A stretch of DNA of 64,000 bases from Pyxidicoccus parkwaysis (lineage in GTDB: Bacteria > Myxococcota > Myxococcia > Myxococcales > Myxococcaceae), in the NCBI RefSeq assembly GCF_017301735.1, contig NZ_CP071090.1, forward strand, positions 3,648,001 through 3,712,000. The letters are read 5' to 3'. Below the pieces are notes generated by a model, which was given only the letters and a program-made list of their open reading frames with translations, was not told the DNA's origin and did not search any database. Position numbers and translations under genes: made by a program. This document shows positions 3,726 through 21,560 of the stretch, in pieces; within the stretch, counting starts at the first letter, position 1; every line of letters starts with the position of its first letter.

Positions 3726-3826
3726 GGCGCGGCGGCAGCATAGCGCAGCCGGTTCATGCCACCTGTGGGAACGCCACTGACTGGGGTGTGTCGGCTACGC
3801 TGGAAGCGGAGGGGACGCGTCACGTG

Positions 3827-4981
3827 ATGAGCCAGCGCGGAGCGACAGAGGTCGGGAGTCTCCCAGGGCGCCAGTCACGGTGGCCCATGACGCTGCGCAT
3901 CTGGGCGCTCGGCATGGCGGCGGGGACGCTGGGCGCGCTGCCGCATGCATTGCGCGCGTATGCGCAGGAGCCGCGCGACTTCCTCTTCAAGCTGGCGCTG
4001 GAGCTGGTGCCGTACAGCGCCTGGGCCCTGCTCGGTCCGCTGGTCCTCGCCGTCTTCCGACGCGTGCCTCCGGAGGGCCCACGCCTGGGGCGGAACCTGG
4101 GCATCCTGCTGGTGGCGGGCGCGGGCTTCGCGCAGCTCCACGTGTTCCTCCTCGCGCCCGTGATGGCCGAGCTCCAGCAGTGGAGCTCGCGAGGCGTGTC
4201 CTTCACGACGGGCCTGTGGGAGCTGCTGCTGGGACGCGGCGCGGTGGGCTACTTCGAATACCTGCTCTTCCTCGCCGCCTGGGCCGCGCTCCGCTCCGCG
4301 CGTCGTGCTCGCGAGCGCGAGCTGGCGGAGTCGCGCCTCGCGGTGCAGCTCGCGGAGACCCGGCTGCGGGCCCTGCGCGCGCAGCTCGACCCGCACTTCC
4401 TCTTCAACACGCTCAACGCCGTCACGGGCCTGGTGCGTCAGCATCGCAACCCCGAGGCAGTGGAGGCGCTGGTGGAGCTGGGTCACCTGCTGCGCGCGAG
4501 CCTGGAGGGACGCGGCGACCACGAGGTGCCACTCGAAGACGAGCTGGAGCTGGTTCGTCGTTACCTCGGCATCGAGCAGCTCCGCTTCGGCGGCCGCCTC
4601 GCGGTCCACCTGGAGCCGGAGCCCGGGACGCTGCGCGCCCTCGTGCCGTCGCTCATCCTCCAGCCGCTGGTGGAGAACGCCATCAAGCACGGCACCGCGC
4701 GCCGCGTCGGGCGGGGCCACATCCTCGTGCGCAGCGTGCGCGAGGGAAGGGTGCTGCGCCTGGAGGTGCGCGACGATGGCCCGGGCCTCAGGGCGGGAGG
4801 GGCAGGGGGCACGGGCATCGGCGTGGCCAACACGAGAGACCGCATCCGCGAGCGCTATGGTGCGCCCTACGGCCTGACGCTGGAGGACCTGCCGGAAGGC
4901 GGCGTGCTCGCGCGAGTGGAGTTGCCATACGTGGAAGCACGAGCCGACATGAGGGACGAGGAGGTACGGAGCCGTGCGTGA
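3827..4981 (+). CDS. LytS-type sensor histidine kinase
   Basis: This 384-aa membrane histidine kinase of the His_kinase (PF06580)/LytS type autophosphorylates and should pass phosphate to the LytTR regulator whose GTG lies inside its 3' end. Residues 20-160 hold about four hydrophobic helices, forming an integral-membrane sensor without a large periplasmic domain. A short basic coiled coil leads to the phosphoacceptor motif QLDPHFLFNTLN, with His near residue 189. The ATP-binding region has LVENAIKHG (N-box, near 280) and DDGPGL plus GIGVANTRDR (G-boxes). The ATG at 3827 was chosen over an upstream in-frame extension because it follows a GGAGGGG stretch; ATG 3887 is another option. The stimulus is unknown. 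Confidence 0.9.
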   Translation: MSQRGATEVGSLPGRQSRWPMTLRIWALGMAAGTLGALPHALRAYAQEPRDFLFKLALELVPYSAWALLGPLVLAVFRRVPPEGPRLGRNLGILLVAGAGFAQLHVFLLAPVMAELQQWSSRGVSFTTGLWELLLGRGAVGYFEYLLFLAAWAALRSARRARERELAESRLAVQLAETRLRALRAQLDPHFLFNTLNAVTGLVRQHRNPEAVEALVELGHLLRASLEGRGDHEVPLEDELELVRRYLGIEQLRFGGRLAVHLEPEPGTLRALVPSLILQPLVENAIKHGTARRVGRGHILVRSVREGRVLRLEVRDDGPGLRAGGAGGTGIGVANTRDRIRERYGAPYGLTLEDLPEGGVLARVELPYVEARADMRDEEVRSRA

Positions 4982-5810
4982 GGGGAACGCCGAGCAGTCC
5001 GGCTGGCGTGTGTTGGTGGTGGACGACGAGCCGCTGGCCCGCGACAACGTGAAGCATCTGCTGGCCCGCGCGACGGACGTCACGCACGTGCGCGAGTGCG
5101 AGGGCGGACGCGAGGCCGTGGAGGTCATCCTCCGCGAGCGGCCGGACCTCGTCTTCCTCGACGTGCAGATGCCGGAGGTGGACGGCTTCGACGTGCTGCG
5201 CGAGGTGGGCCCGGAACGGATGCCCCCGGTCATCTTCGTGACGGCGTTCGACCGGTACGCGGTGAAGGCCTTCGAGGCCAACGCGCTCGACTACCTGCTC
5301 AAGCCCTTCGGCGACCGGCGCTTCGAGGAGGCTCTGGAGCGAGCCAGACGCCAGCGAGCCCAGGGAAGGGACCGGGCCCTGCTGGAGCGGCTGTCCGCGC
5401 TGCTCGACCTGCACCGGGGACGCGCGCCGGAGCCCGAGCCCAGGGCGCCCCCTGCCTCACCTCCCGACGGTGGCTACATCGAGCGCATCGCCGTGAAGAC
5501 GAACGGCAAGGTGCTGCTGTTGCCGGTGCAGGAATTGGACTGGTGCGAGGCCGAGGGCAACTACGTGGTGCTGCACGCGGGCAGTCGCAGTCCCATGCTG
5601 CGCGAGACGCTGAATCAGGTGGAGCAGTGGTTGGACCCGCGTCGCTTCGTGCGCGTCCACCGCTCCACGCTGGTCAACGTGGAGCGCATCCGCGAGCTGG
5701 AGCCGGACGTGGACAAGGGCTGGGTGGTGGTGCTGCGTGACGGCACGCGCCTGCGCCTGAGCCCCGGCCGCAAGGCCGCGGTGGAGGCGCTGCTTCGGCA
5801 GTCATTCTGA
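4974..5810 (+). CDS. LytTR-family response regulator
   Basis: This 278-aa DNA-binding regulator is the partner of the LytS-type kinase, whose gene it overlaps by 8 bases. The GTG start at 4974 is supported by GAGGAGG at about 4958-4964. Residues 8-125 form a receiver domain: VVDDEPLA supplies the acidic pocket, FLDVQMPEVDG contains the phosphoacceptor Asp near residue 63, and KPFG supplies the conserved Lys. After a proline-rich linker, residues about 165-278 are a LytTR domain (WCEAEGNYVVLH, then FVRVHRSTLVNV), the beta-fold DNA-binding module of AlgR/AgrA/LytR proteins. It probably controls membrane, exopolysaccharide or transport genes, but no target is visible here. Its 3' end overlaps the convergent hybrid kinase gene by 9 bases. 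Confidence 0.93.
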   Translation: MREGNAEQSGWRVLVVDDEPLARDNVKHLLARATDVTHVRECEGGREAVEVILRERPDLVFLDVQMPEVDGFDVLREVGPERMPPVIFVTAFDRYAVKAFEANALDYLLKPFGDRRFEEALERARRQRAQGRDRALLERLSALLDLHRGRAPEPEPRAPPASPPDGGYIERIAVKTNGKVLLLPVQELDWCEAEGNYVVLHAGSRSPMLRETLNQVEQWLDPRRFVRVHRSTLVNVERIRELEPDVDKGWVVVLRDGTRLRLSPGRKAAVEALLRQSF

Positions 5811-8390
5811 GCGCGAGCCGCGCGCCTGCTCCAGCGCCTGCTCCAGCCGGTTGATGTCGTAGGGCTTCGGCAGCGCCACGGCCCGCGCCAGCGCGTCGCC
5901 GCTCTCCTGCATCACCGTACTGCCCTGGCCGGAGGCGATGATGACGCCCAGCCCGGGCTCGGCGTGGAGGGCCTCGCGCGCCAGCTCCATGCCCGACATG
6001 CCGGGCAGGCTCACGTCGGTGATGAGGACGTCGAAGCGCGCGGAGCGCAGCACGGCTCGCGCCTCCTCCGCGCTCGCGACGCCCCGCACGTCGTGCCCCA
6101 GCGTCTCCAGCAGGTCGCAGGTCGGGAGCCGGATGTCCTCGTCGTCCTCCACCAGCAGGATGCGCAGCGGCCCCGCCTTCGCGATGGGCACGGGGGCCGC
6201 GCGAGCCTCGCGCTCGGTGAGCCGCTGCTGCCGGGCCCGGAGCAACTGGCGCACCTTGCGGGCCAGGTCCTCGCGCCGGTAGGGCTTGCTCAACAGGTGG
6301 ACGCCCGGGTCCAACCGGCCGCCGTGGACGATGGCGTTCTCCGTGTAGCCCGAGGTGAAGAGCACCTCCAGGTCCGGCAGGAGCGCGCGGGCCTGCCGCG
6401 CGAGCTCGGGGCTGCGCACCGGGCCCGGCATCACCACGTCGGTGAAGAGCAGGTCGATGGAGATGCCGCTCTGGAGCACGGCCAGCGCGCTCGCTCCGTC
6501 CGCCGCCTTGAGCACGTGGTAGCCCAGCTCCGTCAGCAGCTCCACCGCCGTGGCGCGCACCTCGGGGTCGTCCTCGACGACGAGCAGCGTCTCCGTGCCG
6601 CCCTCCACCTGCTCCGAGACGACGTCGGCGCGCGTCACCTCCGGTTGGAGCGAGCGCGGCAGGTAGATCTTGATGGTCGTCCCGTGGTCCACCTCGCTGT
6701 AGATCTTGATGTGGCCACCGGTCTGCTTGACGAAGCCATACACCATGCTCAGCCCGAGCCCCGTGCCCCGGCCCTCGGGCTTCGTGGTGAAGAAGGGCTC
6801 GAAGGCGCGCTCCATCACCTGGGGCGACATGCCGCAGCCGGTGTCGGAGATGGCCAGCTGCACGTACTGGCCCGGGACCACGTCCGGGTGGAGTTGGGTG
6901 TAGTGGTCATCCAGCATGGCGTTGCCGGCCTCGAGGGTCAGCTTGCCTTCATCCCCCATGGCGTCGCGCGCGTTGATGGCCAGGTTGAGGATGACGTTCT
7001 CGAGCTGGTTGGGGTCCGCGAAGGTGTTCCAGAGGCCGCCGCCGATGATGGTCTCCAGCTCGATGTCTTCGCCGAGCGCGCGGCGCAGCAGCTCGTCCAT
7101 GCCGCGCACCAACCGGCCAAGGTTGATGACCCTGGGGTCCAGCGGCTGCTGCCGGGCGAAGGCGAGCAGCTGCGCCGCGAGCCGGGCGCCGCGCTCGACC
7201 GCGCCCATGGCGGTGGCCACCCTGCGCCGGGCCGGCCCGTTGGCGCCGAGCTCGCGGTCCAGGAGCTGGAGGTTGCCGCCGATGACCTGGAGCAGGTTGT
7301 TGAAGTCGTGCGCCACGCCTCCGGTGAGCTTGCCCACTGCCTCCATCTTCTGGGCCTGCCGCAGCACGGCCTCCGTCTGCCGGCGCTCGGCCTCGCTGTC
7401 CTGCAGGGCCTTCGTCCGCTCCCGGACCAGCTCCTCCAGGTGGTCGCGGTAGCGGCGCAGCTCGTCCTGGGCGCGCTTCTGCTCGGTGATGTCGTGCCCC
7501 TGAACGAAGATGCCGGAGATGTCGCCGTTCGGATCGACGACGGGCTGGTACATCAGGTCGATGTAGACCTCGTCGAGCGGTGCGCCGGGATGCCGCTGCA
7601 GGAGGACCTTCAGGCCGTGGCCGATGAAGGCCCGGCCCGTGGTGATGACGCCGTCGAGCAGCTCGAAGTAGCCCTGACCCTCCACCTCGGGGAGGGCGTC
7701 CCGCACGGACTTGCCGAGGATGTCCCGGTGCCCGACGAGCTGGGCGTAGGCCTTGTTGGCGAGCTCGAAGACGTGCTGCCTTCCGCGGAGGAAGCACATG
7801 AAGCCGGGGGCCTGCTCGAAGAGCCGGCGAAGGTGACGCCGCTCGGCGTCGAGCGTCTGGTTGGCCTCCTGGACACTCTGTGCGCGCTCCAGGATGCCCG
7901 CCTCGAGCTGCTCGCGGGAGGCTTCGGCGGAGGCCTCGGCCCGGTTCCGCGCGACCTCCGCCTCACTGACGGCCTGCTTCAGCCGCTGCAGCTCGGTGAC
8001 CTCCACGGTGTGCTGGAGGATGAAGGCCACTTCCCGCGCCGAGTCGAAGATGGGGGTGTGCGTGGCGCTCCAGTACCGCTCCTCGATGACGGTGCCCTGG
8101 TCCGTCACCCTGGGGACGCGGTACGGAATCAGCGCGAGGCTGTCCGGCGTCCGGTTCGTCAGCACCCGGAGGAGGGACTCGCGCAGCAGGCGTGCGCTGG
8201 CGTTGTTGGGGTCGTTCGGATCATTCGGGAAGGCGTCGAGGATGTATCGCCCGAGCAGGTCTTCCCGCCGGCTCGTTGTCACCCGCAGGTAGGCGGCGTT
8301 CGCCGCGACGAACCGCAGGTCGCGGTCCAGCAGCATGTAGAGATTCGGCGACGCTTCGAAGAGCGACTGGAAGTCGATGGTGTCGGGCAT
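5802..8390 (-). CDS. Hybrid sensor histidine kinase, PAS-PAS-HisKA-HATPase-REC-REC
   Basis: This 862-aa soluble kinase has no membrane helix. Two PAS domains come first (from about residue 7, SLFEASPNLYMLLD; from about 180, LFEQAPGFMCFLRG). A coiled coil follows, then the HisKA motif GGVAHDFNNLLQ and an HATPase domain (NLAINARDAM, DTGCGM, GTGLGLSMVYGF). Two receiver domains end the protein: LLVVEDDPEVR with FTDVVMPG, and ILLVEDDEDIR with ITDVSLPGMSG. Both keep the acceptor Asp. The start is set at ATG 8390, just before the first PAS domain; upstream in-frame codons to 8543 run through the non-coding repeat island and are unlikely to be translated. Double receivers imply a phosphorelay or competing outputs, and no output domain is attached. 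The 5' flank is the unusual island at 8391-8854. Confidence 0.9.
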   Translation of the reverse strand: MPDTIDFQSLFEASPNLYMLLDRDLRFVAANAAYLRVTTSRREDLLGRYILDAFPNDPNDPNNASARLLRESLLRVLTNRTPDSLALIPYRVPRVTDQGTVIEERYWSATHTPIFDSAREVAFILQHTVEVTELQRLKQAVSEAEVARNRAEASAEASREQLEAGILERAQSVQEANQTLDAERRHLRRLFEQAPGFMCFLRGRQHVFELANKAYAQLVGHRDILGKSVRDALPEVEGQGYFELLDGVITTGRAFIGHGLKVLLQRHPGAPLDEVYIDLMYQPVVDPNGDISGIFVQGHDITEQKRAQDELRRYRDHLEELVRERTKALQDSEAERRQTEAVLRQAQKMEAVGKLTGGVAHDFNNLLQVIGGNLQLLDRELGANGPARRRVATAMGAVERGARLAAQLLAFARQQPLDPRVINLGRLVRGMDELLRRALGEDIELETIIGGGLWNTFADPNQLENVILNLAINARDAMGDEGKLTLEAGNAMLDDHYTQLHPDVVPGQYVQLAISDTGCGMSPQVMERAFEPFFTTKPEGRGTGLGLSMVYGFVKQTGGHIKIYSEVDHGTTIKIYLPRSLQPEVTRADVVSEQVEGGTETLLVVEDDPEVRATAVELLTELGYHVLKAADGASALAVLQSGISIDLLFTDVVMPGPVRSPELARQARALLPDLEVLFTSGYTENAIVHGGRLDPGVHLLSKPYRREDLARKVRQLLRARQQRLTEREARAAPVPIAKAGPLRILLVEDDEDIRLPTCDLLETLGHDVRGVASAEEARAVLRSARFDVLITDVSLPGMSGMELAREALHAEPGLGVIIASGQGSTVMQESGDALARAVALPKPYDINRLEQALEQARGSRSE

Positions 8391-8539
8391 CGGGCGGGCG
8401 GGCGGGGCGGCTGACTCGTAAGAGGTGCCACACGTCGCGACCGGAACGGGCGATTTCGTCGACGGGAAGCGTCCGAGAGGGCCGTTTCCTGTCGCCTCAG
8501 TGACACTCAGCGACAAGACGCGGAGGCCGTGCAGTAAGA

Positions 8540-8712
8540 GCAATGCCTACATGAACACGTCTTCAGCCAGTTTTTCGGAGGCGCGGGAAGGCGCTTCCGA
8601 GGGCTCCCGGAAGGGCAATGCCTACATGAACAGGAATTCAGCTCTTTCGGGGGGACCGACGACGCTTGAAGGGTGTCGTGGAAGGGCAATACCTACATGA
8701 ACCGATTTTCAG
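8540..8712 (+). repeat. Three spaced copies of GCAATRCCTACATGAAC-N5-TTCAG
   Basis: Copies start at 8540, 8615 and 8686. Each has the 17-bp core (one base changed in copy 3) and then TTCAG starting exactly 22 bases after the core start. Inside every copy TGAA-N6-TTCA is a conserved dyad while the N6 varies, the behaviour expected of a dimeric protein-binding site or of an RNA stem whose loop is free. Spacing is 75 and 71 bases, so the copies are neither in one reading frame nor a CRISPR array. A degenerate fourth copy may start at 8751, inside the hairpin. Confidence 0.75.
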
Positions 8713-8747
8713 TCAATTTCGGACCGGTCCACACGACGAAACGACAA

Positions 8748-8799
8748 TAGGCAATCACAGACATGAATTCATGTGTCTGTGATTGTCTATGTTTTTTTT
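8748..8799 (+). terminator. Long hairpin followed by T8, intrinsic terminator on plus strand
   Basis: The arms AGGCAATCACAGACATGAA and TTCATGTGTCTGTGATTGTCT pair almost perfectly over about 19 bp, with a two-base bulge and the EcoRI-like GAATTC at the centre. Eight consecutive T residues follow at 8792-8799. This is a textbook intrinsic terminator for plus-strand transcription, yet no plus-strand gene ends here; the nearest plus-strand coding end is at 5810. That points to an unannotated short plus-strand transcript. On the minus strand the exit side is less T-rich. Confidence 0.65.
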
Positions 8800-8817
8800 G
8801 TTTGTAATTGTGTTTCA

Positions 8818-8836
8818 CGTGTCGACAGTGTCGACA
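8818..8836. promoter_or_regulatory. Perfect palindrome GTGTCGACA-G-TGTCGACAC
   Basis: A 9-bp perfect inverted repeat with a one-base centre lies 19 bases downstream of the oxygenase stop. It contains two SalI-type GTCGAC sequences. As a hairpin it would have almost no loop, so a dimer-binding site is more likely than a terminator. The TGTCG half also occurs in the dyad at 8490-8515. Confidence 0.45.
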
Positions 8837-8854
8837 CATGTATCGCCACGGCGG

Positions 8855-9961
8855 CTACGACTTCGCGCGCTGCTGGTTGAGGCGGTCGTAGTGGCGGTAG
8901 CCGAGCTTGTCGAGCGCGCTCGGGGGCGCGAGGCCGATGTCCACCAGCGTCTTGATGTCATAGGTGCCGGCGAGCACGGGCGGCGCGTAGTTCCGGATGG
9001 CCTCCGGGGTGCGGAACTTCTGCAGCGGGTAGAGCACCGTGCTGGTGTGCACGTGCATGAAGTGCGCGGCGGACTGGCGCTGCCAGCCGGACACGCCCGG
9101 CGCGGTGATGACGTGCGGCGTGGCGAGGAAGGTGCCGCCGGTGAGGATTTCGAGCTGCTGGCCCACCTGGGCGACGATGCAGCCGGCGGGCGCGGTGCCG
9201 CGCACCATCTTCCCCTTGGGGTCCTCCGCCGTCGCGCGGGTGCGCAGGTACAGGCCGCTCTTGTTGTCGGGGCCGGGCGCCGCGCGTCCGGACGGGTCGA
9301 GGAAGCGGCCTCCGGGGAGGAGCGTGAGGAGGTTGAAGTCCGTGTGCTCCTCGCCCCAGACGATGTCGGTGTTCACCTGTGCCTCGGTGAGCGGCAGGTA
9401 CTGGAGGGCGCGGGTGACGTGCGGGGCGCGCTGGCAGAAGTCGGCGAACACCGTCTCGGGCAGGCCCAGCGCGAGGGCCGCGCCGCGCAGGAGCTTCAGG
9501 CCGGCCTCATGGAGGGAGCGGCCGAGCTGCATGATGCCGTCCTGGAAGAAGGCGGGCGGGTTCGCGGGCCAGACGTTCTCCGGGTACAGCTCGGGGAACT
9601 CCATGGCGGCCTGTTCGTCGTTGGGGTAGGGCGCGACGAAGTAGCACTCCTTGAAGTCCGGCTGGCCGTTGCCGGCGACGGCGACCTCGGTGTTCGGCGG
9701 CGTCCAGCCGCGCTGGTACCAGATGTCGGCGCGGCCGAAGGGCTTCTTGGCCTCGGCGGGGCGGGCGATGAACTCGGCGAAGGCGTCGTAGTAGCGGTTG
9801 AGCGCCTGCGTATCGACGCCGTGGTTCTTCAGGTACACGAGGCCGAAGACGCCGAACGCCTCGCGGATCGCCGCGGACGCGCGCTCGATGCCCGCCGGGT
9901 CATTCGACGAGAGGTCGGCGAGGTCGACAGTGGGGATGTTCAGCGAAGAGGTCTCGGCCAT
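8855..9961 (-). CDS. Fe(II)/2-oxoglutarate-dependent oxygenase, isopenicillin-N-synthase-like
   Basis: This 368-aa enzyme has the N-terminal (DIOX_N) and C-terminal double-stranded beta-helix regions of the isopenicillin N synthase / plant 2OG oxygenase family. The N-terminal part reads NIPTVDLADLS and then EAFGVFGLVYLKNHGV. The facial triad is visible: H206-x-D208 in EEHTDFNLLTLL and H283 in ATPHVITAPG. An R-x-S pair at 295-297 binds the 2-oxoglutarate carboxylate. It should hydroxylate, desaturate or cyclise a small molecule; the substrate cannot be read. ATG 9961 is used because it directly precedes the family N-terminus; the frame is open far upstream only because it lies antisense to the symporter. 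It is divergent from the symporter over about 200 bases, which contain no other gene. Confidence 0.88.
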   Translation of the reverse strand: MAETSSLNIPTVDLADLSSNDPAGIERASAAIREAFGVFGLVYLKNHGVDTQALNRYYDAFAEFIARPAEAKKPFGRADIWYQRGWTPPNTEVAVAGNGQPDFKECYFVAPYPNDEQAAMEFPELYPENVWPANPPAFFQDGIMQLGRSLHEAGLKLLRGAALALGLPETVFADFCQRAPHVTRALQYLPLTEAQVNTDIVWGEEHTDFNLLTLLPGGRFLDPSGRAAPGPDNKSGLYLRTRATAEDPKGKMVRGTAPAGCIVAQVGQQLEILTGGTFLATPHVITAPGVSGWQRQSAAHFMHVHTSTVLYPLQKFRTPEAIRNYAPPVLAGTYDIKTLVDIGLAPPSALDKLGYRHYDRLNQQRAKS

Positions 9962-10162
9962 GGTGGCCAAGGTGTATCGCTCCTCGGGGCGGAAGGGGAG
10001 ACCCTGCTGCGAGGTTCCGGTCCACTGGACGGGGAGGCGACCGCCTCCTACCCGCCCTGGGAGGGGCGGGCAGGGGTAATCGGGTCTCAAATCCGCCTGC
10101 GAACCCCTGCGCGCCCCCGGGCCCTCCGTTATCGTCCGCCGTCGCTCACCGAGGTGCTCACC

Positions 10163-11437
10163 GTGAAGACGCTCTTCTCCGCCTGGTTCCGCATTCCCTT
10201 CTGGCAGCGGGTGCTCGGTTCCTTCGTGCTCGGGGCGCTGGTCGGATGGCTCGTGGGGCCTGCGTCGGGCACGTGGTTCCAGCCGCTCGGCACGCTCTAC
10301 GTCAACCTCATCAAGATGATCGCCACGCCGCTGGTGTTCTTCGCGGTCATCAACGCCGTGGCCGCGCTCCATGGGCAGAAGAGCGTGGCCGCGCTCGGCG
10401 GCAAGACGTTCCTCTGGTTCGCCATCACCGCCGCGCTCGCCGTCGCCGTGGGGCTCGGCGCCGGTACCCTCCTGAAGCCCGGCGTCGGCGTGGGCAAGCT
10501 CCAGCTCGCCGAGAACTACACGCCCCGCGAGGTCCCCGGCCCGGTCCAGGTGCTCCTCGACGTGGTGCCCACCAACCCGTTCGCCGCGCTGGCCGGAGGG
10601 AAGATCCTCCAGGTCATCTTCTTCGCCGGCCTCCTCGGCTTCGCCCTCGTCAAGCTCGGAGAGAAGACGGCGCGCCTGCGCGAGCTGGTCCGCGAGGCCA
10701 GCGACGCGATGATTCAAGTCACGCGCTTCGTGCTGGAGCTCACCCCGCTGGGCACCTTCGGCCTCATCGCCGCGCTCGTGGGCACCTATGGCTTCGAGCG
10801 CCTGCTGCCCCTCGGCCGCTTCGTGTTCGCGCTGTACCTCGCGTGCGCGCTGCACGTCATCTTCGTCTACGGCGGCCTGCTGCTCGCGCACGGGCTCAAC
10901 CCGCTGCGCTTCTTCCGAGGCGCCGCGCCCGGCATGCAGGTGGCCTTCGTCAGCTCGTCCAGCTTCGCGTCCATGCCCGTGGCCCTGCGCAGCGTCACGC
11001 AGAACCTGGGCGTCAACAAGGACTACGCCTCCTTCGCGGTGCCGCTCGGGGCCAGCATCAAGATGGACGGCTGCGGCGCCATCTACCCGGCCATCGCCTC
11101 GCTCTTCGTCGCGCAGTACTTCGGCCTGGAGCTGTCCGCCTCGCAGTACTTCGTCATCCTCCTCGCCTCGGTGCTGGGCAGCTTCGGCACCGCGGGCGTG
11201 CCCGGCACCGCCGTGGTCATGGCCACCGTGGTGCTCAGCTCCGCGGGCCTGCCGCTGGAGGGCCTGGGCTACCTCATCGCCATCGACCGCGTGCTCGACA
11301 TGATGCGCACGCTCACCAACGTCACCGGGCAGATGCTCGTGCCGGTGCTGGTGGCCCGCGAGGAGGGACTGCTCGACGAGGCCGTCTACAACCGCGCCGC
11401 CTCCAACGTGGGGCTGGAGAAGGAGGTCGCGGAGTAG
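10163..11437 (+). CDS. Dicarboxylate/amino acid:cation symporter (DAACS)
   Basis: This 424-aa inner-membrane transporter is of the GltP/DctA type (SDF family), which takes up glutamate, aspartate or C4-dicarboxylates with Na+ or H+. The first helices include VLGSFVLGALVGW and FVNLIKMIATPLVF-like segments typical of the family. The serine-rich re-entrant hairpin is SSSSFASMPVAL. The substrate and cation motif appears as IKMDGCGAIYPA, a variant of the usual NMDGTA/NMDPTG type. The C-terminal motif is AIDRVLDMMRTLTNV. GTG 10163 is chosen because GAGGTG lies about 6 bases upstream and the first helix follows directly; the same frame is open further upstream but is antisense to the oxygenase. It may share divergent regulation with the oxygenase. 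Confidence 0.92.
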   Translation: MKTLFSAWFRIPFWQRVLGSFVLGALVGWLVGPASGTWFQPLGTLYVNLIKMIATPLVFFAVINAVAALHGQKSVAALGGKTFLWFAITAALAVAVGLGAGTLLKPGVGVGKLQLAENYTPREVPGPVQVLLDVVPTNPFAALAGGKILQVIFFAGLLGFALVKLGEKTARLRELVREASDAMIQVTRFVLELTPLGTFGLIAALVGTYGFERLLPLGRFVFALYLACALHVIFVYGGLLLAHGLNPLRFFRGAAPGMQVAFVSSSSFASMPVALRSVTQNLGVNKDYASFAVPLGASIKMDGCGAIYPAIASLFVAQYFGLELSASQYFVILLASVLGSFGTAGVPGTAVVMATVVLSSAGLPLEGLGYLIAIDRVLDMMRTLTNVTGQMLVPVLVAREEGLLDEAVYNRAASNVGLEKEVAE

Positions 11438-11484
11438 CCGCGTCACACTGACAACGCTTGGACGCTCGGGGCGTTGCCGGGTGG

Positions 11485-11899
11485 ATGGGGGCCTTGCCGG
11501 AAGGCAGACTCCCTTTCGTGCAATTCCATACGCAAACGCTGTCGCTGGCGGGTGCGCCCGCACTGGCCGTCCACGTGGGCTCGCGGGAGGAGGCGCTGCG
11601 CAAGGGCGCGGTGTTGCTCTTCCATGGGCTCGGCGCGTCGAAGGAGGTGCACACGGCGGAGCTGTCTGCCTTCGCCTCGCGCGGGCTCTATGCCGTGGGC
11701 GTGGATGCCGTGGGCCACGGCGCCCGGCGCTACCCGGACTTCGACACGCGCTTCAGCTTCGAGGACCCGCGCCGCCGCCACGAGGAGTTCCTCACGGTGG
11801 TCCGCGAGAGCGCGCGACATGATGCCGATGCACGACTGGGAGGAAGCCATCCGCGGCGCGGTGGCGTGGATGGACCGCTTCGTGGCCGGGGCGCGGTGA
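11485..11899 (+). pseudogene. Alpha/beta hydrolase remnant with internal deletion and frame change
   Basis: From ATG 11485 the first frame gives about 110 residues of a normal alpha/beta hydrolase N-terminus: a beta strand with PALAVHV, then VLLFHGLGASKEVH (oxyanion HG motif), then GVDAVGHGARRYPD. It then stops resembling the family at about 11815. From there a different plus frame encodes MMPMHDWEEAIRGAVAWMDR, which is the usual last helix of such hydrolases including the catalytic-His neighbourhood, followed by a stop at 11899. The middle of the protein, including the nucleophile elbow GxSxG, is absent. The simplest explanation is an internal deletion of about 400 bases that also changed the frame. 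It lies tail-to-tail against the decarboxylase-like gene. Confidence 0.7.
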
Positions 11900-17233: not shown

Positions 17234-18205
17234 ATGGCGGTGAATGTCGTGGCGTGGGCCGACCCGGTCCGTCAACCCGAGCCGGGCCGTCTTCGGGCAT
17301 GGCACCTCGTGTGTCCTTCGGACTCACTCCGGCGTGGGCAGGTGATGGGCTTCAACCTGGGCGGGAGGGAGCTGGTTCTCTTCCGGGGACAGGGCGGTGG
17401 CGTGTTTGCGCTGTCCGCGCACTGCGCGCACATGGGCACGCACCTCGCGGGCGGCGACGTCGTCGGCGACTGCCTCCGCTGTCCGCTGCACCACTGGCGC
17501 TTCGACGGAAGCGGCGCCTGTCAGGCGGACGTGGGTGGTCGTCCCGGGCAGAGGCCATTCCCCGTGGTGGAGCGCTTCGGCGCCATCCTCGTCTTCAACG
17601 GGCCCGTGGTCCTCTGTCCTCCACCGGAGGTCGGTGCCGCGGACCTGTCGTGGCGCATCGGCTCCGAAGTCACCGTGAGCTGTGACTGGCTTCCGCTGGT
17701 GGCCAACTCCTTTGACATCGAGCACCTGCGCACCGTGCACCACCGCGAGCTCTGGGACACGCCCGTGCTGGAGCGGTTGGACCCGTTCACCTTGCGCCTG
17801 CGCTACACGTCGCGCGTCACCGGTTCCGGGGCGAGTGACTGGCTGATGAAGACGCTGTCCGGCAATCGCATCCGCGTCACCATCACCGCGCATGGAGGGA
17901 CGCTCCTCTCCGTGGAGAGCGACCTCGGCCGGACGCGGAGTGCCCTGGTTGCGGGCTTCCGCAAGACACCCGAGGGCATGGCCGTGCGGCTGGCCTTCGC
18001 CGCGCGCCGGGGGCGAATCCCGGGCATGGACCGGCTGTCGCTCGCGGTGTCGCGGTGGCTGTTCACGTCGTTCCTGCGCAGGGACTTGTCCGTGCTCCAC
18101 GGCATGCGCTTCAACCTGTCCGGCGCGGCGGAGGACCCCATCCTTCGCCAGTTGATGGACTACACCGCCAGCCTCCCCGAGGACCGCGATGACGAGCGAG
18201 GGTAG
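17234..18205 (+). CDS. Rieske non-haem iron oxygenase
   Basis: This 323-aa oxygenase component has an N-terminal Rieske [2Fe-2S] domain with ligands C64-x-H66 and C83-x2-H86 (CAHMGTH and CLRCPLHHW). The C-terminal catalytic domain holds the mononuclear iron motif D161-I-E-H164-x4-H169. The layout matches single-component members such as VanA, cholesterol 7-desaturase (DAF-36/Neverland) or KshA, which act on sterols, aromatic rings or chlorophyll derivatives. It needs an electron-transfer partner that is not encoded nearby. The gene overlaps the desaturase gene by 17 bases and is the first of three tightly linked genes ending in a PAP2/prenyl-synthase fusion, so a lipid or isoprenoid substrate is a reasonable inference. 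Confidence 0.9.
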   Translation: MAVNVVAWADPVRQPEPGRLRAWHLVCPSDSLRRGQVMGFNLGGRELVLFRGQGGGVFALSAHCAHMGTHLAGGDVVGDCLRCPLHHWRFDGSGACQADVGGRPGQRPFPVVERFGAILVFNGPVVLCPPPEVGAADLSWRIGSEVTVSCDWLPLVANSFDIEHLRTVHHRELWDTPVLERLDPFTLRLRYTSRVTGSGASDWLMKTLSGNRIRVTITAHGGTLLSVESDLGRTRSALVAGFRKTPEGMAVRLAFAARRGRIPGMDRLSLAVSRWLFTSFLRRDLSVLHGMRFNLSGAAEDPILRQLMDYTASLPEDRDDERG

Positions 18206-19154
18206 GGGCACGCCCGTTCCGGCCCGGCTCAACCTCGTGCTGCTGGTCTCGGCGATGACCGCGTGCGCGGGCTGTCTCTGGCTGGCATCTCACGGTGAGA
18301 CGTGGGCTGTGCGACTGGTGGCGGCGGTGGTGTTCTCGTTCGTGAACAACACCGTGTTCTCGCTGCTCCACGAGGCGACGCACGGCGTGCTGCATCCATC
18401 GCGCAGGGTGAATGATGGGTTGGGGCGCGTGGCGGCGACGCTGTTCCCCACGTCGTTCACCATGCAGCGGGCCTTCCACCTCAACCACCACCGGCACAAC
18501 CGGACGCGGCTGGAGCAGTTCGACTACTTCCGGCCCGGCGACAATCGCCTCCTCAAGTGCGCGCAGTGGTACTCCATCCTCAGCGGGCTCTACTGGGTGT
18601 TCGTGCCGGTGGGGGCAGTGGCGTTCGCGCTCGTCCCCGGGCTGCTGCACCGGCTGCGTGGCACGGGGACTCGGTATGGGGAACAGACGGGCGCGGATGC
18701 GTATCTGGGGCGACTGGAGGATGCGCCGGGGTCCGTCATCCGGTGGGAGGTGCTGCTGGCGGCGGGAGTGCAGGGCGGGCTCGCGGTGGCGCTGGACCTG
18801 TCCGTGATGGGATGGGCGCTGTGCTACGCCGCGTTCGCCGTCAACTGGAGTGGGCTCCAGTACGCGGACCATGCGTGGTCTCCGCTGCACGTGCGCGACG
18901 GTGCGTGGGACTTGCGCGTGGCCGCGCCCGTGCGGTGGATGTTCCTCAACTACCACTACCACCGAGCGCACCATCGGCACCCGCATGTGCCGTGGCTCTA
19001 TCTGGGCCGCTACGTGGACCCGAATGTCCCTCGGCCGTCGTTCCTGCGTGTGTGGCTGTCGATGTGGCTCGGGCCCAGGCCGCTGCCCGAGACAGTGGAG
19101 TCTCGTGTGCTTCCGCACGAGGCGCCGTTGACCGTTGCCATGGAGGAGCGATGA
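18189..19154 (+). CDS. Membrane fatty acid desaturase-family protein
   Basis: This 321-aa integral membrane di-iron enzyme has all three histidine boxes: HEATH (61-65), HLNHH (97-101) and HYHRAHH (256-262). Four or so membrane helices lie between them, the arrangement of the FA_desaturase family. That family also contains carotenoid ketolases and hydroxylases and sphingolipid desaturases. The ATG lies inside the end of the Rieske gene, so translation is coupled. The product ends in AMEER, and its last codons carry the Shine-Dalgarno-like GGAGGAG sequence that is repeated before the next gene. With the neighbouring prenyl-synthase-like domain, an isoprenoid substrate is as plausible as a fatty acid. 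Confidence 0.9.
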   Translation: MTSEGRGTPVPARLNLVLLVSAMTACAGCLWLASHGETWAVRLVAAVVFSFVNNTVFSLLHEATHGVLHPSRRVNDGLGRVAATLFPTSFTMQRAFHLNHHRHNRTRLEQFDYFRPGDNRLLKCAQWYSILSGLYWVFVPVGAVAFALVPGLLHRLRGTGTRYGEQTGADAYLGRLEDAPGSVIRWEVLLAAGVQGGLAVALDLSVMGWALCYAAFAVNWSGLQYADHAWSPLHVRDGAWDLRVAAPVRWMFLNYHYHRAHHRHPHVPWLYLGRYVDPNVPRPSFLRVWLSMWLGPRPLPETVESRVLPHEAPLTVAMEER

Positions 19155-19210
19155 GCGGCTGTCCCATGCGAGCTGCTTCGTTGCCCGCGGCGATGGAGGA
19201 GCGATGAGCG
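19140..19210 (+). repeat. 18-bp direct duplication at the desaturase/PAP2 junction
   Basis: ATGGAGGAGCGATGAGCG occurs at 19140-19157 and again at 19193-19210, 53 bases apart. The first copy ends the desaturase gene, the second supplies the ribosome-binding site and start of the next gene. The segment between them is what a short tandem duplication of a stop/start junction would leave. Confidence 0.85.
19151..19207 (+). CDS. Possible 18-codon minicistron between desaturase and PAP2 fusion
   Basis: The ATG at 19151 overlaps the desaturase TGA, and the frame ends at TGA 19205, which overlaps the ATG of the PAP2 fusion gene. The predicted peptide is MSGCPMRAASLPAAMEER. Both of its ends coincide with the duplicated 18-bp junction, so it is probably an accidental product of that duplication. 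It has a good ribosome-binding site and ATGA couplings on both sides, so ribosomes may pass through it to reach the third gene. I would not assign the peptide a function. Confidence 0.25.
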   Translation: MSGCPMRAASLPAAMEER

Positions 19211-20793
19211 AGCGCCCCAGGCTGTTCGGTGTGCCTCGCCGCGATGAGTTGCTGCTCACCGGCTCGCTCGCGCTCGGCTTCGCGTTCTTCTTCCTCGCCG
19301 TGTACGGCGGCGCGAGCTGGGTGACGGGCTTCTATTCCGGTGGCCTCCGCGTGGACCTGCCCTTCGAGCGGCACATCCCATTCATCCCCGCCTGGGCCGC
19401 CGTCTACGTGAGCATGGACGTGCTCCTGCTCCTGTCGCTCTTCGTGTTCCGCACGTGGAAGGACATGGTGCCCTTCGCGCTCGCGCTCTGTGCGGAGACG
19501 GTGGTGGGTGCGGTTGTCTTCGTGTTGCTGCCGGTGGAGGTCGCCTGGCCCGCGCGCGTCGTGCACGATGGCTGGGCCGGCATCTTCTTCGTGGCCGACA
19601 CGATGAACCTGGAGCGCAACTACCTGCCGTCGCTCCATGTGGCCTTCGCCTGCACGGCCGCGCTGGCGTATGCGGAGCGCTCGGGCTGGCTCGCGCGAGT
19701 CCTCTTCGGCCTATGGGCTGCGGCCATTGCCGCGTCCACGTTGTTCATCCACGAGCACCACCTGGTGGACGTGGTGGCGGGCGCGCTGCTCGCCTGGGGG
19801 ATGTGGCGCTTCATTGCGCCCCGGGCCCGTGGTGAGGATTTCCTGGCCGCGCTTCGGGTGGAAGCCTTCTGTGCCCGTGAGCTGTATCGCTTCTCTCGAC
19901 GGCATCTGCGCTACGCGCTGATTGCGCTCGCGCTCTATCGCTATTCGCTGGGCCGGTGGTGGCGCGCGGCCCGTGTAGCCCGGGTGGGGTTCTGCTTCCT
20001 GCAGCTCGTGGACGACGTGCTGGATGGAGACCGCCCCGTGGACGGCGAGCCGCTCGATTGGGTGGACGCATTGCTCACGGAGCTCGAGCCGGGGCGGGGG
20101 CAGGGCATCGGCACTGAAGCCATGCCGGGCCAGATGCGGGCCACAGCGTCGGAGATGGCACGCGAGCAGGCCACCGACATTGCGGCAACGCTGGGACGGG
20201 TGCTGCTCGACAGCCTGGAGTCTCCGGAGGCACGGGCGAATGTCTTCGCCCTCATGCGCACCATGCGGAGGGACCGAGAGCGGGTGCGAGAGCAACGGTG
20301 GCTTTCCGCCGAGCAGCTCATCGCGCAGCACCGCGACACCTTCCGACTGTCCGTGGACCTGATGCTCCACGTGGCCGGAGCCGACGTGCGCGCCTCGGAT
20401 GTGCCGGCGCTCATCGACGCCTTCGGCTGGTGTTCCAGCCTGCGCGACCTGCGCGAGGACCTGGAGGCGGGGCTCTACAACGTGCCAGCCGAAGTGGCGG
20501 AAGAGGTGAGGGCCGAGGGCGCGAACCCGGCCGACTGCGACGCCCTGCTGGCATCCACCACCGGGCGCGCGTGGGTGGTGGCGGAGTACGCCCGCGCCCG
20601 CGTCCTGCTGGACCGCTCCGCCGAGGACCTCGCCACACTCGAAGGACGCACCGGCGTGCCCCTGCTGCGGTTGTTCCACCGCTCCATCGAGAGCTTCCGG
20701 GCAAGGCGGCTGCCCCGCCGCCTGCCGTTCCTGCGCGAGCCTGCGAGCGTCAAGCCGTGGCCTTCTGGCGCCGCGTCATCCGGCCCACGATGA
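19204..20793 (+). CDS. PAP2-type phosphatase fused to squalene/phytoene-synthase-like domain
   Basis: This 529-aa two-domain protein starts at ATG 19204 with GGAGGAG just upstream. Residues 1-220 are a polytopic membrane PAP2 domain of the Aur1/inositolphosphotransferase-like type. LPSLHVAF has the catalytic His at 145, and the last motif is S178-T-x5-H185-x3-D189, with the usual Arg replaced by Thr. Residues 225-510 look like a trans-isoprenyl diphosphate synthase of the squalene/phytoene synthase class. The first Asp-rich motif is D270-D-x2-D274 (VDDVLD) and the second is D415-x2-ED419 in LRDLREDLEAGLYNVP, which parallels the RDIGEDxxxGRxYLP signature. A head-to-head prenyl synthase joined to a diphosphate-removing membrane domain would make and dephosphorylate, or membrane-anchor, a C30-C40 product. 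Which substrates it accepts is not known. Confidence 0.82.
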   Translation: MSERPRLFGVPRRDELLLTGSLALGFAFFFLAVYGGASWVTGFYSGGLRVDLPFERHIPFIPAWAAVYVSMDVLLLLSLFVFRTWKDMVPFALALCAETVVGAVVFVLLPVEVAWPARVVHDGWAGIFFVADTMNLERNYLPSLHVAFACTAALAYAERSGWLARVLFGLWAAAIAASTLFIHEHHLVDVVAGALLAWGMWRFIAPRARGEDFLAALRVEAFCARELYRFSRRHLRYALIALALYRYSLGRWWRAARVARVGFCFLQLVDDVLDGDRPVDGEPLDWVDALLTELEPGRGQGIGTEAMPGQMRATASEMAREQATDIAATLGRVLLDSLESPEARANVFALMRTMRRDRERVREQRWLSAEQLIAQHRDTFRLSVDLMLHVAGADVRASDVPALIDAFGWCSSLRDLREDLEAGLYNVPAEVAEEVRAEGANPADCDALLASTTGRAWVVAEYARARVLLDRSAEDLATLEGRTGVPLLRLFHRSIESFRARRLPRRLPFLREPASVKPWPSGAASSGPR

Positions 20794-21373
20794 AGCCCGC
20801 GAGGAGCGCGCCCAGCGTCGCGACGGCGATGAAGATGCCGCCGTAGTACTTCAGCTTCTCGAGGAGCGGGTTGTCGAAGACGTTGGTGGAGTAGTGGAAG
20901 GCGGCAATCAGCCACTTGTCGCCCTCGCGCACGAGCGTGCACGTCCACCGGCCGTCGATGACGATGTCCGTGCCGTCCGTGAGCACGTAGTGGTCCTTCG
21001 ACGAGCCCCAGGCAAGGCCCGTGTTGCCATAGAGGTGCGTCAGGTCATCCACCTCGAACTTCGCGGTGATCTTGTCCACCACGCGGTTCGGCCCGCGCAT
21101 CATCTCGTCGTAGTACGCGCGGATGGCGTCCTTGCCCACGCGCACGTCGTTGTTCATGGTGGTGAAGACGACGTCCGGGGTCAGGTGGGACAGCAGCCGG
21201 TCCACGTCCTGCTTGTTGAGCGCGTCCTCCATGTCCTGCTTGAGGGCGCGCAGCGCGTTGTGCGTGGCCTCCACGTCCGCGGGCGCGCCGCCGGCCGCGG
21301 CATCCTGGGCCTGGCCGGGTGCCGCGACGAGCAAGAGCAGCAATGCCACCACACCGCCGAGGGTCCGCGTCAT
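20750..21373 (-). CDS. NTF2-like (SnoaL/DUF4440-type) secreted protein with C-terminal membrane anchor
   Basis: This 207-aa protein starts at ATG 21373 after CAGGAGA. Residues 1-22 are a signal peptide ending AQA. Residues about 35-165 form an NTF2-like cone fold: ALKQDMEDALNKQDVDRLLSHLTPDVVFTT, then KDAIRAYYDEMM, then DGRWTCTLVREGDKWLIAAFHYS. A C-terminal hydrophobic helix (YYGGIFIAVATLGALLAGF) and basic tail RMTRRQK would anchor it with the domain in the periplasm. Such proteins bind small molecules or serve as isomerases; no catalytic residues can be named. It overlaps the end of the PAP2 fusion gene by 44 bases in the convergent direction. Confidence 0.8.
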   Translation of the reverse strand: MTRTLGGVVALLLLLVAAPGQAQDAAAGGAPADVEATHNALRALKQDMEDALNKQDVDRLLSHLTPDVVFTTMNNDVRVGKDAIRAYYDEMMRGPNRVVDKITAKFEVDDLTHLYGNTGLAWGSSKDHYVLTDGTDIVIDGRWTCTLVREGDKWLIAAFHYSTNVFDNPLLEKLKYYGGIFIAVATLGALLAGFIVGRMTRRQKATA

Positions 21374-21560
21374 GAGGTCTCCTGCCTGCGAGTTGCAGGA
21401 GCATCCTCGAAGCCGCGCGACGGAGGAAGACTTCTGACGTCGCGACCACCTCGCCACGGCGCCCGGCGTGTCCGGAGTCACCTCGGCCCGCGCTTGCCCT
21501 ATGCTGCGCTCCGGAAGGTCGCGAGGCCTTGTCGGAACCCGCCTCCCGGAGCGCCCCCGC

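Follow-up and report, generated by a model that had tools for sequence, protein, structure and literature searches.

A fused PAP2_3 and divergent squalene/phytoene-synthase-type protein in an operon with a Rieske oxygenase and a desaturase in Myxococcaceae

The window, a 64,000-nucleotide stretch of DNA from Pyxidicoccus parkwaysis, encodes a fusion protein that consists of a membrane PAP2_3 domain and a very divergent squalene/phytoene-synthase-type C-terminal half (Table 1). Ahead of its gene lie those for a Rieske oxygenase and a desaturase, the latter overlapping the end of the Rieske gene and stopping 49 bases short of the fusion. We found this order, Rieske-desaturase-fusion, in 15 of the 16 loci whose context was compared. 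The desaturase is weakly CrtW/CrtR-like, scoring 30.1 bits with CrtW, for which the cut-off is 350. On the other side, the convergent SnoaL/DUF4440 gene has a counterpart within a gene cluster from Citrobacter that is discussed below; by eye, its product begins with a signal-like sequence and ends in a hydrophobic tail. In one genome (G134) the desaturase and the PAP2 half are lost together. We considered this joint loss as a sign of coupling and dropped it, because by eye it looks like one in-frame deletion.

Table 1. Genes, domains and motifs at the fusion locus (coordinates count from the first nucleotide of the window)
Feature	Coordinates	Strand	Evidence or remarks
Rieske [2Fe-2S] oxygenase	17234..18205	+	PF00355, 72.4 bits; same operon; upstream in 16/16 context loci
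FA_desaturase	18189..19154	+	PF00487, 95.7 bits; 15/16 context loci
PAP2_3 / squalene-synthase-like fusion CDS	19204..20793	+	529 aa
PAP2_3 domain, residues 64-201	19393..19806	+	Pfam PF14378, PF01569
C2-type motif PSLH, residues 142-145	19627..19638	+	14/14 own-genus rows, 19/19 further fusions
C3-type motif S-T-LFIHE-H-HLV-D, residues 178-189	19735..19770	+	Thr179 is the Arg site
Squalene/phytoene-synthase-like domain, residues 212-512	19837..20739	+	Profile, alignment and model comparisons
First Asp motif DDVLD, residues 270-274	20011..20025	+	14/14 own-genus rows, 20/20 further rows
22-residue insert, residues 305-326	20116..20181	+	Window protein only; gap in 13 other own-genus rows
Second Asp motif RDLREDL, residues 414-420	20443..20463	+	R414-L420 invariant in 14/14 own-genus rows
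SnoaL/DUF4440 protein, convergent	20750..21409	-	PF14534, 45 bits; 16/16 context loci

The fusion has 13 orthologues in its own genus, at 71-87% identity. Across Myxococcota, the C-terminal half was found in 36 of 195 genomes, all within one family; 33 of these carriers were read as fusions, one has the C-terminal half alone and two were not read. At locus L067 (one genome) the synthase half is kept alone, after the Rieske gene. Among the matches listed from open-licence PMC papers, we found no description of a PAP2-synthase fusion or of a PAP2-desaturase module. The insert that, among the 14 own-genus rows, only the window protein has was considered as a repeat or mobile piece, which we rejected because it is present in a single copy in the genome.

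We assign the C-terminal half to its family on indirect evidence. Searches of Pfam, NCBIfam and the PDB with the window's C-terminal half gave no relevant match, and neither the window protein nor L067 matched the NCBIfam HpnC/HpnD models. The sequence-only reading, which had proposed an isoprenoid synthase fold, is nonetheless supported indirectly, by way of orthologues and profiles. In a search of 67 genomes, the SQS_PSY family (PF00494) recovered 7 of 13 carriers, all of one genus (g31), at 7e-5 to 5e-4 and 22-24 bits, below the gathering cut-off of 26; it missed the other six, including the window. One orthologue matched HpnC at 9e-5 and HpnD at 2e-4 (22.1 and 20.4 bits versus cut-offs of 250 and 279). 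An hhalign comparison of the half with 29 phytoene synthase rows, obtained from 30 loci, reached probability 90 and a score of 50, whereas none of 50 column shuffles scored above 20; the score for the PF00348 profile was 28.7. By alignment, DDVLD pairs with DDMVD and RDLREDL with RDVREDL of phytoene synthase, and the RD..ED core of the second motif is retained in 20 of 20 further rows. By eye, the aligned stretch does not preserve phytoene synthase's YCYRVAGxVG helix motif. Foldseek, run on a low-confidence model of the half (pLDDT 51.7, pTM 0.47), ranked HpnC (4hd1) first, with E 0.054 and probability 0.97. In the VIA comparison of the same low-confidence model, proteins named as isoprenoid synthases or prenyltransferases make up 49 of 50 rows (Z 7.7-9.4). 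The half differs from HpnC/HpnD and the phytoene synthases in being fused to a membrane PAP2 domain and in falling below every curated cut-off.

Alternatively, the C-terminal half might not be an isoprenoid synthase, and its likeness to one might be no more than would be expected between helical bundles that carry Asp motifs. This could explain why nothing rises above a curated cut-off; moreover confidence in the model is low, Foldseek ranks an unrelated helical protein fourth, and middling Z scores are common for helical bundles. Nevertheless, SQS_PSY, HpnC/HpnD, hhalign against shuffles, Foldseek and VIA, the last two of which share one model, all agree on one superfamily, and we regard this alternative as very improbable.

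The N-terminal half scores above the Pfam gathering cut-off for PAP2_3 (PF14378, 37.1 bits versus 27) and for PAP2 (PF01569, 27.6 bits versus 27.2). A whole-protein structure predicted from two rows reached a pLDDT of 39, too low to be of use for this half. The last PAP2 motif reads S178-T179-LFIHE-H185-HLV-D189, which bears out the earlier observation that its His and Asp are kept and that Ser-Thr replaces Ser-Arg. None of these four residues (S178, T179, H185, D189) varies among the 14 own-genus rows, and the other 19 fusions that were read all retain the Ser-Thr pair, the His and the Asp; in every one of the 33 fusions, Ser-Thr thus stands in place of the canonical C3 motif with Arg (SRx5Hx3D). 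The canonical C2 His and C3 His and Asp are present as H145, H185 and D189, invariant in 14/14 own-genus and 13/13 wider rows. Two features count against reading this half as a phosphatase. First, the canonical C1 motif KxxxxxxRP occurs in none of the 33 fusions, although Arg118 is offset by a single residue from the C1 Arg in the alignment. Second, PSLH has Leu at the position where PgpB needs Gly. In PgpB, the C1 mutant R104A is reported to be down to 2% and G162A to 0.8% (PMC7413402). No relative turned up when viral contigs were scanned for additional PAP2 rows.

Does the Arg-to-Thr change distinguish this domain? We examined 37 PAP2 relatives, the 30 best-scoring PF14378 loci and 7 others. 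In the 35 that were readable, many of them orthologous to one another, the Arg site holds Ala (21), Thr (10), Cys (3) or Ile (1) and never Arg. Canonical PF01569 loci, examined as a control, have Arg in seven of eight readable cases (21 examined, 13 unreadable by pattern). The change is therefore not distinguishing, but normal among the PAP2_3 relatives of this domain. The only mutant data found on the C3 Arg concern PgpB R201A, which is reported to keep 25% activity on C55-PP and 0.3% on PGP (PMC7413402). On these data the C3 Arg is largely dispensable for prenyl-diphosphate hydrolysis. We accordingly reject Arg-to-Thr as a diagnostic of transfer.

The change had originally been taken to raise the option of head-group transfer, since Aur1-like transferases share it, and the solved AUR1 sequence does have Ser-Thr at this site (WWSTMYLTHHYFVD). 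The PAP2 half would then be a transferase of the AUR1/sphingomyelin-synthase type, acting on the membrane's outer face, where a lipid or isoprenoid alcohol would receive a phospho-head group such as phosphoinositol. The PSLH, Ser-Thr and HxxxD motifs of AUR1 inositol phosphorylceramide synthase all align with the window domain, and rough charge counts place the PAP2 motifs outside, with the synthase half inside. A Citrobacter relative weakly matches phosphoinositol dihydroceramide synthase (1.6e-5, 24.5 bits, cut-off 480), and ceramide phosphoinositol is reported from M. xanthus (PMC9246714). However, the top solved-structure match of a 13-row profile of the window's PAP2 group is LpxE (0.00075), ahead of AUR1 at 0.0057, whereas the same genome has its own, separate AUR1 homologue that matches the AUR1 structure at 6e-22 (single sequence). 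A phylogenetic tree, in which long branches were flagged, separates the window's domain from the AUR1-like clade with support of 100/99, and no head-group gene is found among the mapped neighbours.

Escherichia coli K-12 YnbD bears on the same question. It also has Ser-Thr at the Arg site, and its PAP2 part is 29% identical to the window's, with STLTTWQHHFID. Its C-terminal half, however, is a dual-specificity phosphatase, and YnbD and other PAP2/dual-specificity phosphatase proteins have CDP-alcohol phosphatidyltransferase and cytidylyltransferase neighbours; the YnbD operon has genes for a CDP-alcohol phosphatidyltransferase and a CDP-diglyceride synthase. Plasmid-encoded relatives with this architecture (28-33% identical) have Val at the Arg site and belong to the same larger group in the tree. 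YnbD failed to complement C55-PP or PGP phosphatase strains, and the available part of the same study ascribes no function to it (PMC7413402). Because YnbD shares the Ser-Thr yet fails in phosphatase complementation, it favors transfer and weakens the case for hydrolysis. Considering the tree, the separate AUR1 homologue, the relatives without Arg and the residual activity of PgpB R201A together, we find transfer rather unlikely, and concluding head-group transfer from the Arg-to-Thr change is not supported. The broader suggestion of a lipid-modifying fusion fares better, as both halves have intact motifs and the operon includes a Rieske oxygenase and a desaturase.

The PAP2 group of the window recurs beside one desaturase family: it adjoins 12 of 15 second-type desaturase loci, the other three being without PAP2. 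In two myxobacteria (L165 and L170) a PAP2 domain is fused to the desaturase itself, and a plasmid cluster of Citrobacter portucalensis encodes a PAP2_3 protein and a desaturase of the same family. The tree places these PAP2_3 proteins, from Myxococcaceae and Citrobacter, together with the window's in one larger PAP2 group, and their partner desaturases are 34-42% identical to the window's; unlike the window protein they have no synthase half, the fused partner in L165 and L170 being the desaturase. We rejected a Burkholderia PAP2-desaturase ORF as the same fusion and consider it a looser counterpart: its desaturase shares only 27% identity with that of the window (2.6e-6 in a comparison with six proteins) and its PAP2 25%. 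GH3 genes are present in the Citrobacter and Burkholderia clusters.

Where a pair lacks the synthase half, its lipid may be a non-isoprenoid one; this and the three second-type desaturases that have no PAP2 count against the explanation preferred below. The PAP2 half could serve the desaturase on an acyl, sphingoid or glycerolipid substrate, with the synthase-like half a binding domain or one that has lost its function. That pairing and fusion occur without any synthase half, that GH3 genes lie in both clusters and that Pfam fails to recognize so diverged a synthase half are all consistent with this. On the other hand, DDVLD and the RD..ED core are conserved in all 34 rows read, and L067 retains the synthase half alone after its Rieske gene. 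We hold a non-isoprenoid role to be unlikely.

The best explanation of these data, to which we give slightly less than an even chance, is a bifunctional membrane enzyme that combines a prenyl- or lipid-diphosphate phosphatase with an isoprenoid synthase and is served by Rieske and desaturase tailoring. The C-terminal half, probably cytoplasmic, would be a divergent head-to-head class I isoprenoid synthase (squalene/phytoene/HpnC-type) that binds a prenyl diphosphate through Mg2+ at DDVLD and RDLREDL. In the PAP2_3 half, a putative lipid diphosphate phosphatase working without the canonical C3 Arg, Asp189 would activate His185, and the reaction of His185 with a diphosphate, prenyl or of another lipid, would give a phospho-histidine from which water would free the phosphate. 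Oxidation of the lipid would follow, carried out by the Rieske oxygenase and by the desaturase, which is this PAP2 group's usual companion. We infer hydrolysis rather than transfer, the prenyl substrate and the order of steps. The rough charge counts, which place the PAP2 motifs and the synthase half on opposite sides of the membrane, speak against this explanation, since an intermediate would need to get from one side to the other. PDP1 is a PAP2 enzyme. It hydrolyses isoprenyl diphosphates (PMC8641950), which speaks for the explanation. By gene content, the locus resembles the gromomycin cluster of Streptomyces, which makes a triterpene and brings together Rieske oxygenases, a PAP2 protein and a prenyltransferase-like protein; there, however, these are separate genes, with a cytochrome P450 and no desaturase in the gene table (PMC12105684).

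More broadly, and more tentatively, the PAP2_3-desaturase pair could be an undescribed lipid-modifying module that makes an oxidized isoprenoid lipid in Myxococcaceae. Such a module would occur both in Myxococcaceae and on a plasmid of an enterobacterium, Burkholderia having a looser counterpart, and its PAP2 part would have been fused at least twice, to a desaturase and to a squalene-synthase-like enzyme. In Myxococcaceae it would form a line of synthase, phosphatase, desaturase and Rieske oxygenase, the first two in one polypeptide across the membrane.

These results warn against taking the absence of the Arg as a sign of head-group transfer. If the bifunctional enzyme is real, a PAP2 lineage without the classical Arg, which includes E. 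coli YnbD, would gain a predicted partner and a testable substrate class, and Myxococcaceae would make a so far unreported lipid of isoprenoid type, from genes that four genera have retained.

The 529-residue fusion protein matches two Pfam PAP2 families at residues 64-201, one of the PF14378 (PAP2_3) type (37.1 bits, cut-off 27) and PAP2 itself at 27.6 bits versus a cut-off of 27.2. The sequence-only reading had noted that the last PAP2 motif keeps its His and Asp with Ser-Thr at the Ser-Arg position, and we found this borne out in 14 own-genus rows and 19 further fusions. The motif residues of both halves are invariant in the own-genus rows, with the exceptions of Phe181 and Leu187. Among 20 further loci, 19 encode full fusions with PSLH and Ser-Thr, the remaining one (L067, from genome G134) encoding the C-terminal half alone, and the DDVLD and RD..ED core is present in all 20; the motifs were thus read in every C-half genome but G107 and G120. 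The window protein also carries a 22-residue insert in its synthase half (window 20116-20181), which is missing from the 13 other rows of the own-genus alignment and occurs as a single copy in the genome.

Coordinates of the features discussed (residue numbers for motifs, nucleotide positions otherwise)
Feature	Location	Strand	Remark
PAP2/synthase-like fusion ORF	window 19204 (ATG) to 20793	+	529 aa
PSLH motif	residues 142-145		PAP2 half
Last PAP2 motif	S178-T179-LFIHE-H185-HLV-D189		PAP2 half
DDVLD	residues 270-274		C-terminal half
RDLREDL	residues 414-420		C-terminal half
Natural PAP2-desaturase fusion	L165:8595-10142		genus g5 of the window's family, first of two genomes
Natural PAP2-desaturase fusion	L170:9519-11117		genus g5, second genome
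Citrobacter portucalensis plasmid cluster	L158 (NZ_CP134684.1 42000-75000), 10127-21513
Burkholderia arboris plasmid stretch	L159 (NZ_CP101525.1), 2720-11627		collection lists no features there
E. coli K-12 ynbD	L204:7910-9202		function unascribed

Because the same change occurs in Aur1-like transferases, the option of head-group transfer rather than phosphate hydrolysis had been raised for the PAP2 half. The solved AUR1 sequence does have Ser-Thr at the Arg site and the parallel itself stands, but it is not exclusive, since E. coli K-12 YnbD, a PAP2-type/dual-specificity phosphatase protein with a PAP2_3 score below the cut-off and 29% identity to the window PAP2 domain, has Ser-Thr there too (STLTTWQHHFID). 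We examined 37 PAP2 relatives (the 30 best-scoring PF14378 loci and 7 further loci); in the 35 that were readable the site held Ala in 21, Thr in 10, Cys in 3, Ile in 1 and Arg in none, although these represent few independent cases because many are orthologues. In a canonical PF01569 control, 8 of 21 loci were readable by motif pattern; seven of these had Arg, and all eight had the KxxxxxxRP C1 motif.

A tree of 43 PAP2 domains split the AUR1-like group from the group of the window domain with support of 100/99; some of its long branches were flagged, and the placement of the Burkholderia and L022 rows is uncertain. When a 13-row profile of the window's PAP2 group was compared with solved structures, LpxE (0.00075) came ahead of AUR1 (0.0057). 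AUR1 has its own homologue elsewhere in the window's genome (L110, in the region G000:C1:9832511-9833050; 6e-22 to the solved AUR1, 9vj3). Ceramide phosphoinositol has been reported from M. xanthus (PMC9246714), and L110 is a better candidate for its synthesis than the window PAP2 half. Loci with the L110-like motif also occur in other genomes of the window's family.

Mutant data for PgpB (PMC7413402) bear on the phosphatase reading. The activities left on C55-PP and PGP were 25% and 0.3% for R201A, 27% and 0.09% for H163A, and 118% and 298% for K97A; R104A, S161A, G162A and D211A had at most 2% on C55-PP and H207A had none. The window domain keeps equivalents of S161, H163, H207 and D211, lacks equivalents of R201 and K97, and has Leu at the place of G162; its Arg118 sits one residue off the aligned position of the PgpB C1 Arg. 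By this analogy, the residue pattern points more towards a prenyl-diphosphate phosphatase than towards a phosphomonoesterase, without proving it. Counting against a phosphatase, YnbD failed to complement C55-PP or PGP phosphatase strains (PMC7413402).

We next consider the C-terminal half, for which an isoprenoid synthase fold had been proposed. The window C-half sequence alone gave no relevant match in Pfam, NCBIfam or PDB, and a PF00494 search of its own genome did not find it even at E <= 10. In a 67-genome search, PF00494 detected the C-half in 7 of 13 carriers (7 of 8 in genus g31, 0 of 5 in g1), with per-genome E-values of 7e-5 to 5e-4 and 22-24 bits, below the cut-off of 26. The L066 orthologue matched HpnC (9.1e-5) and HpnD (2.1e-4), far below equivalog cut-offs, and neither L067 nor the window protein matched either. 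Profile-profile comparison of 34 C-halves with 29 phytoene-synthase-type rows gave an hhalign probability of 90 and a score of 50.4, compared with 20.0 for the best of 50 column shuffles, 14.6 for the reversed profile and 28.7 against PF00348 (phytoene synthase against PF00348 itself scored 24.2). Both Asp motifs of the C-half align onto those of phytoene synthase; on visual inspection, the family's YCYRVAGxVG motif is not retained in the C-half alignment. An AlphaFold model built from the Pyxidicoccus caerfyrddinensis (L004) C-half and the window row had a pLDDT of 51.7 and a pTM of 0.47. Foldseek with this low-confidence model ranked HpnC (4hd1) first (E 0.054, probability 0.97), with no match below 0.001 and the unrelated helical protein talin at rank 4. 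Of the 50 VIA matches listed, 49 named isoprenoid synthases or prenyltransferases (the other, PbSS, has a title that does not explain its name) at Z of 7.7-9.4, where values under about 13 may arise by chance for helical bundles; HpnC ranked seventh, with the longest aligned length (192). Taken together, the comparisons make it very likely that the C-half, a putative synthase, belongs to the squalene/phytoene-synthase-type family.

In the favoured reading, the synthase half would bind or build an isoprenoid diphosphate, the PAP2 half would dephosphorylate a lipid diphosphate belonging to that pathway, and the product would be oxidised by the desaturase and Rieske enzymes. As precedents, PDP1 hydrolyses isoprenyl diphosphates, and a title cited in PMC8641950 names it presqualene diphosphate phosphatase; the gromomycin cluster has Rieske, PAP2 and prenyltransferase-like genes, with no PAP2 role given in section 9 of PMC12105684. 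A hydropathy scan of the PAP2 half showed five clear peaks; a sixth segment, which the family would lead one to expect at about 146-157, stayed under the threshold. When six segments were placed by eye, the K+R counts came to 4, 2, 2 and 4 for the inner segments (17, 7, 8 and 21 residues) and 2, 2 and 0 for the outer loops (24, 40 and 6 residues). On these charge counts PSLH and HxxxD would lie outside, and the predicted topology would put the PAP2 site in the periplasm and the synthase half in the cytoplasm, which makes direct channelling unlikely. A simple two-step scheme is weakened most by this opposite-side placement.

The C-half profile matched 36 of 195 Myxococcota genomes (E <= 0.001), and carriers were confined to 4 of 90 genera, all within the window's own family, Myxococcaceae. 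A single genome-contig scan, which detects close relatives only, matched solely a Pyxidicoccus relative. An orthologue query of the plasmid collection matched 31 records; in all 25 of those listed, the match is confined to the PAP2 side (query residues 16-233). All 16 context loci, one of them from the window's own genome, have the Rieske gene upstream of the fusion and, downstream of it, a SnoaL/DUF4440 gene in convergent orientation; in 15 of them the desaturase gene lies between the Rieske and fusion genes. At L067:8634-9542 the start of the lone synthase-like half overlaps the Rieske stop, apparently through in-frame loss of the desaturase and PAP2 half. The fusion-SnoaL gap is 1.4-1.5 kb in the four g31 loci, with a gene inside it in L066, the sole g31 locus inspected; this extra ORF (L066:6589-7899) has 436 codons.

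The desaturase search gave 50 matching positions, spread over 44 of the 195 genomes. By coordinates, 35 are near a C-half match; the other 15 are of a second type, 34-42% identical to the window's desaturase, and a PAP2 gene lies next to 12 of these (in 10 of the 13 loci fetched, and by coordinates in G020 and G026), with none at L164, L166 or L171. Five of the ten fetched neighbours supplied rows to one search profile, but tblastn found all ten; in the 43-domain tree they group with the window's larger PAP2 clade. In genus g5, PAP2 and desaturase are naturally fused in single polypeptides of 516 (L165) and 533 aa (L170), both above cut-off for PF14378 and PF00487; their desaturase parts share 34% and 33% identity with that of the window. 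A second locus in the window's own genome (L160, G000:C1:11346500-11366499), at 9354-10996, has a single-domain PAP2 that belongs to the window's larger group, and after it a desaturase with about 40% identity to that of the window; the pair adjoins a divergent ORF of 368 aa that has no Pfam match.

Searched against 72,556 plasmid records, the desaturase matched two at E <= 1e-15, and the SnoaL protein matched the Citrobacter plasmid alone at E <= 1e-5. Within 3.5 kb, the Citrobacter cluster encodes PAP2, a SnoaL-like protein and a desaturase, with identities of 37%, 30% and 40%, respectively. Around them lie genes for GH3, an N-acetyltransferase and five radical SAM proteins; the three of the latter that were scanned all had a B12-binding match, one above cut-off. 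A near-identity search did not find the cluster in other plasmids or in E. coli genomes. The B. arboris plasmid has a 500 aa ORF in which a weak PAP2 match, at 21.3 bits against a cut-off of 27.2, is joined to a PF00487 domain scoring 99.4 bits; this fused desaturase is just 27% identical to the window's, and a separate nearby desaturase is 34% identical, alongside GH3, Rieske and PF10118 metal hydrolase genes.

Among the open-licence PMC papers listed by our searches, none described a PAP2-squalene-synthase fusion or PAP2-desaturase module. Each single part is of a known kind; their combination, and the recurring partnership between PAP2 and desaturase, appear to be new.
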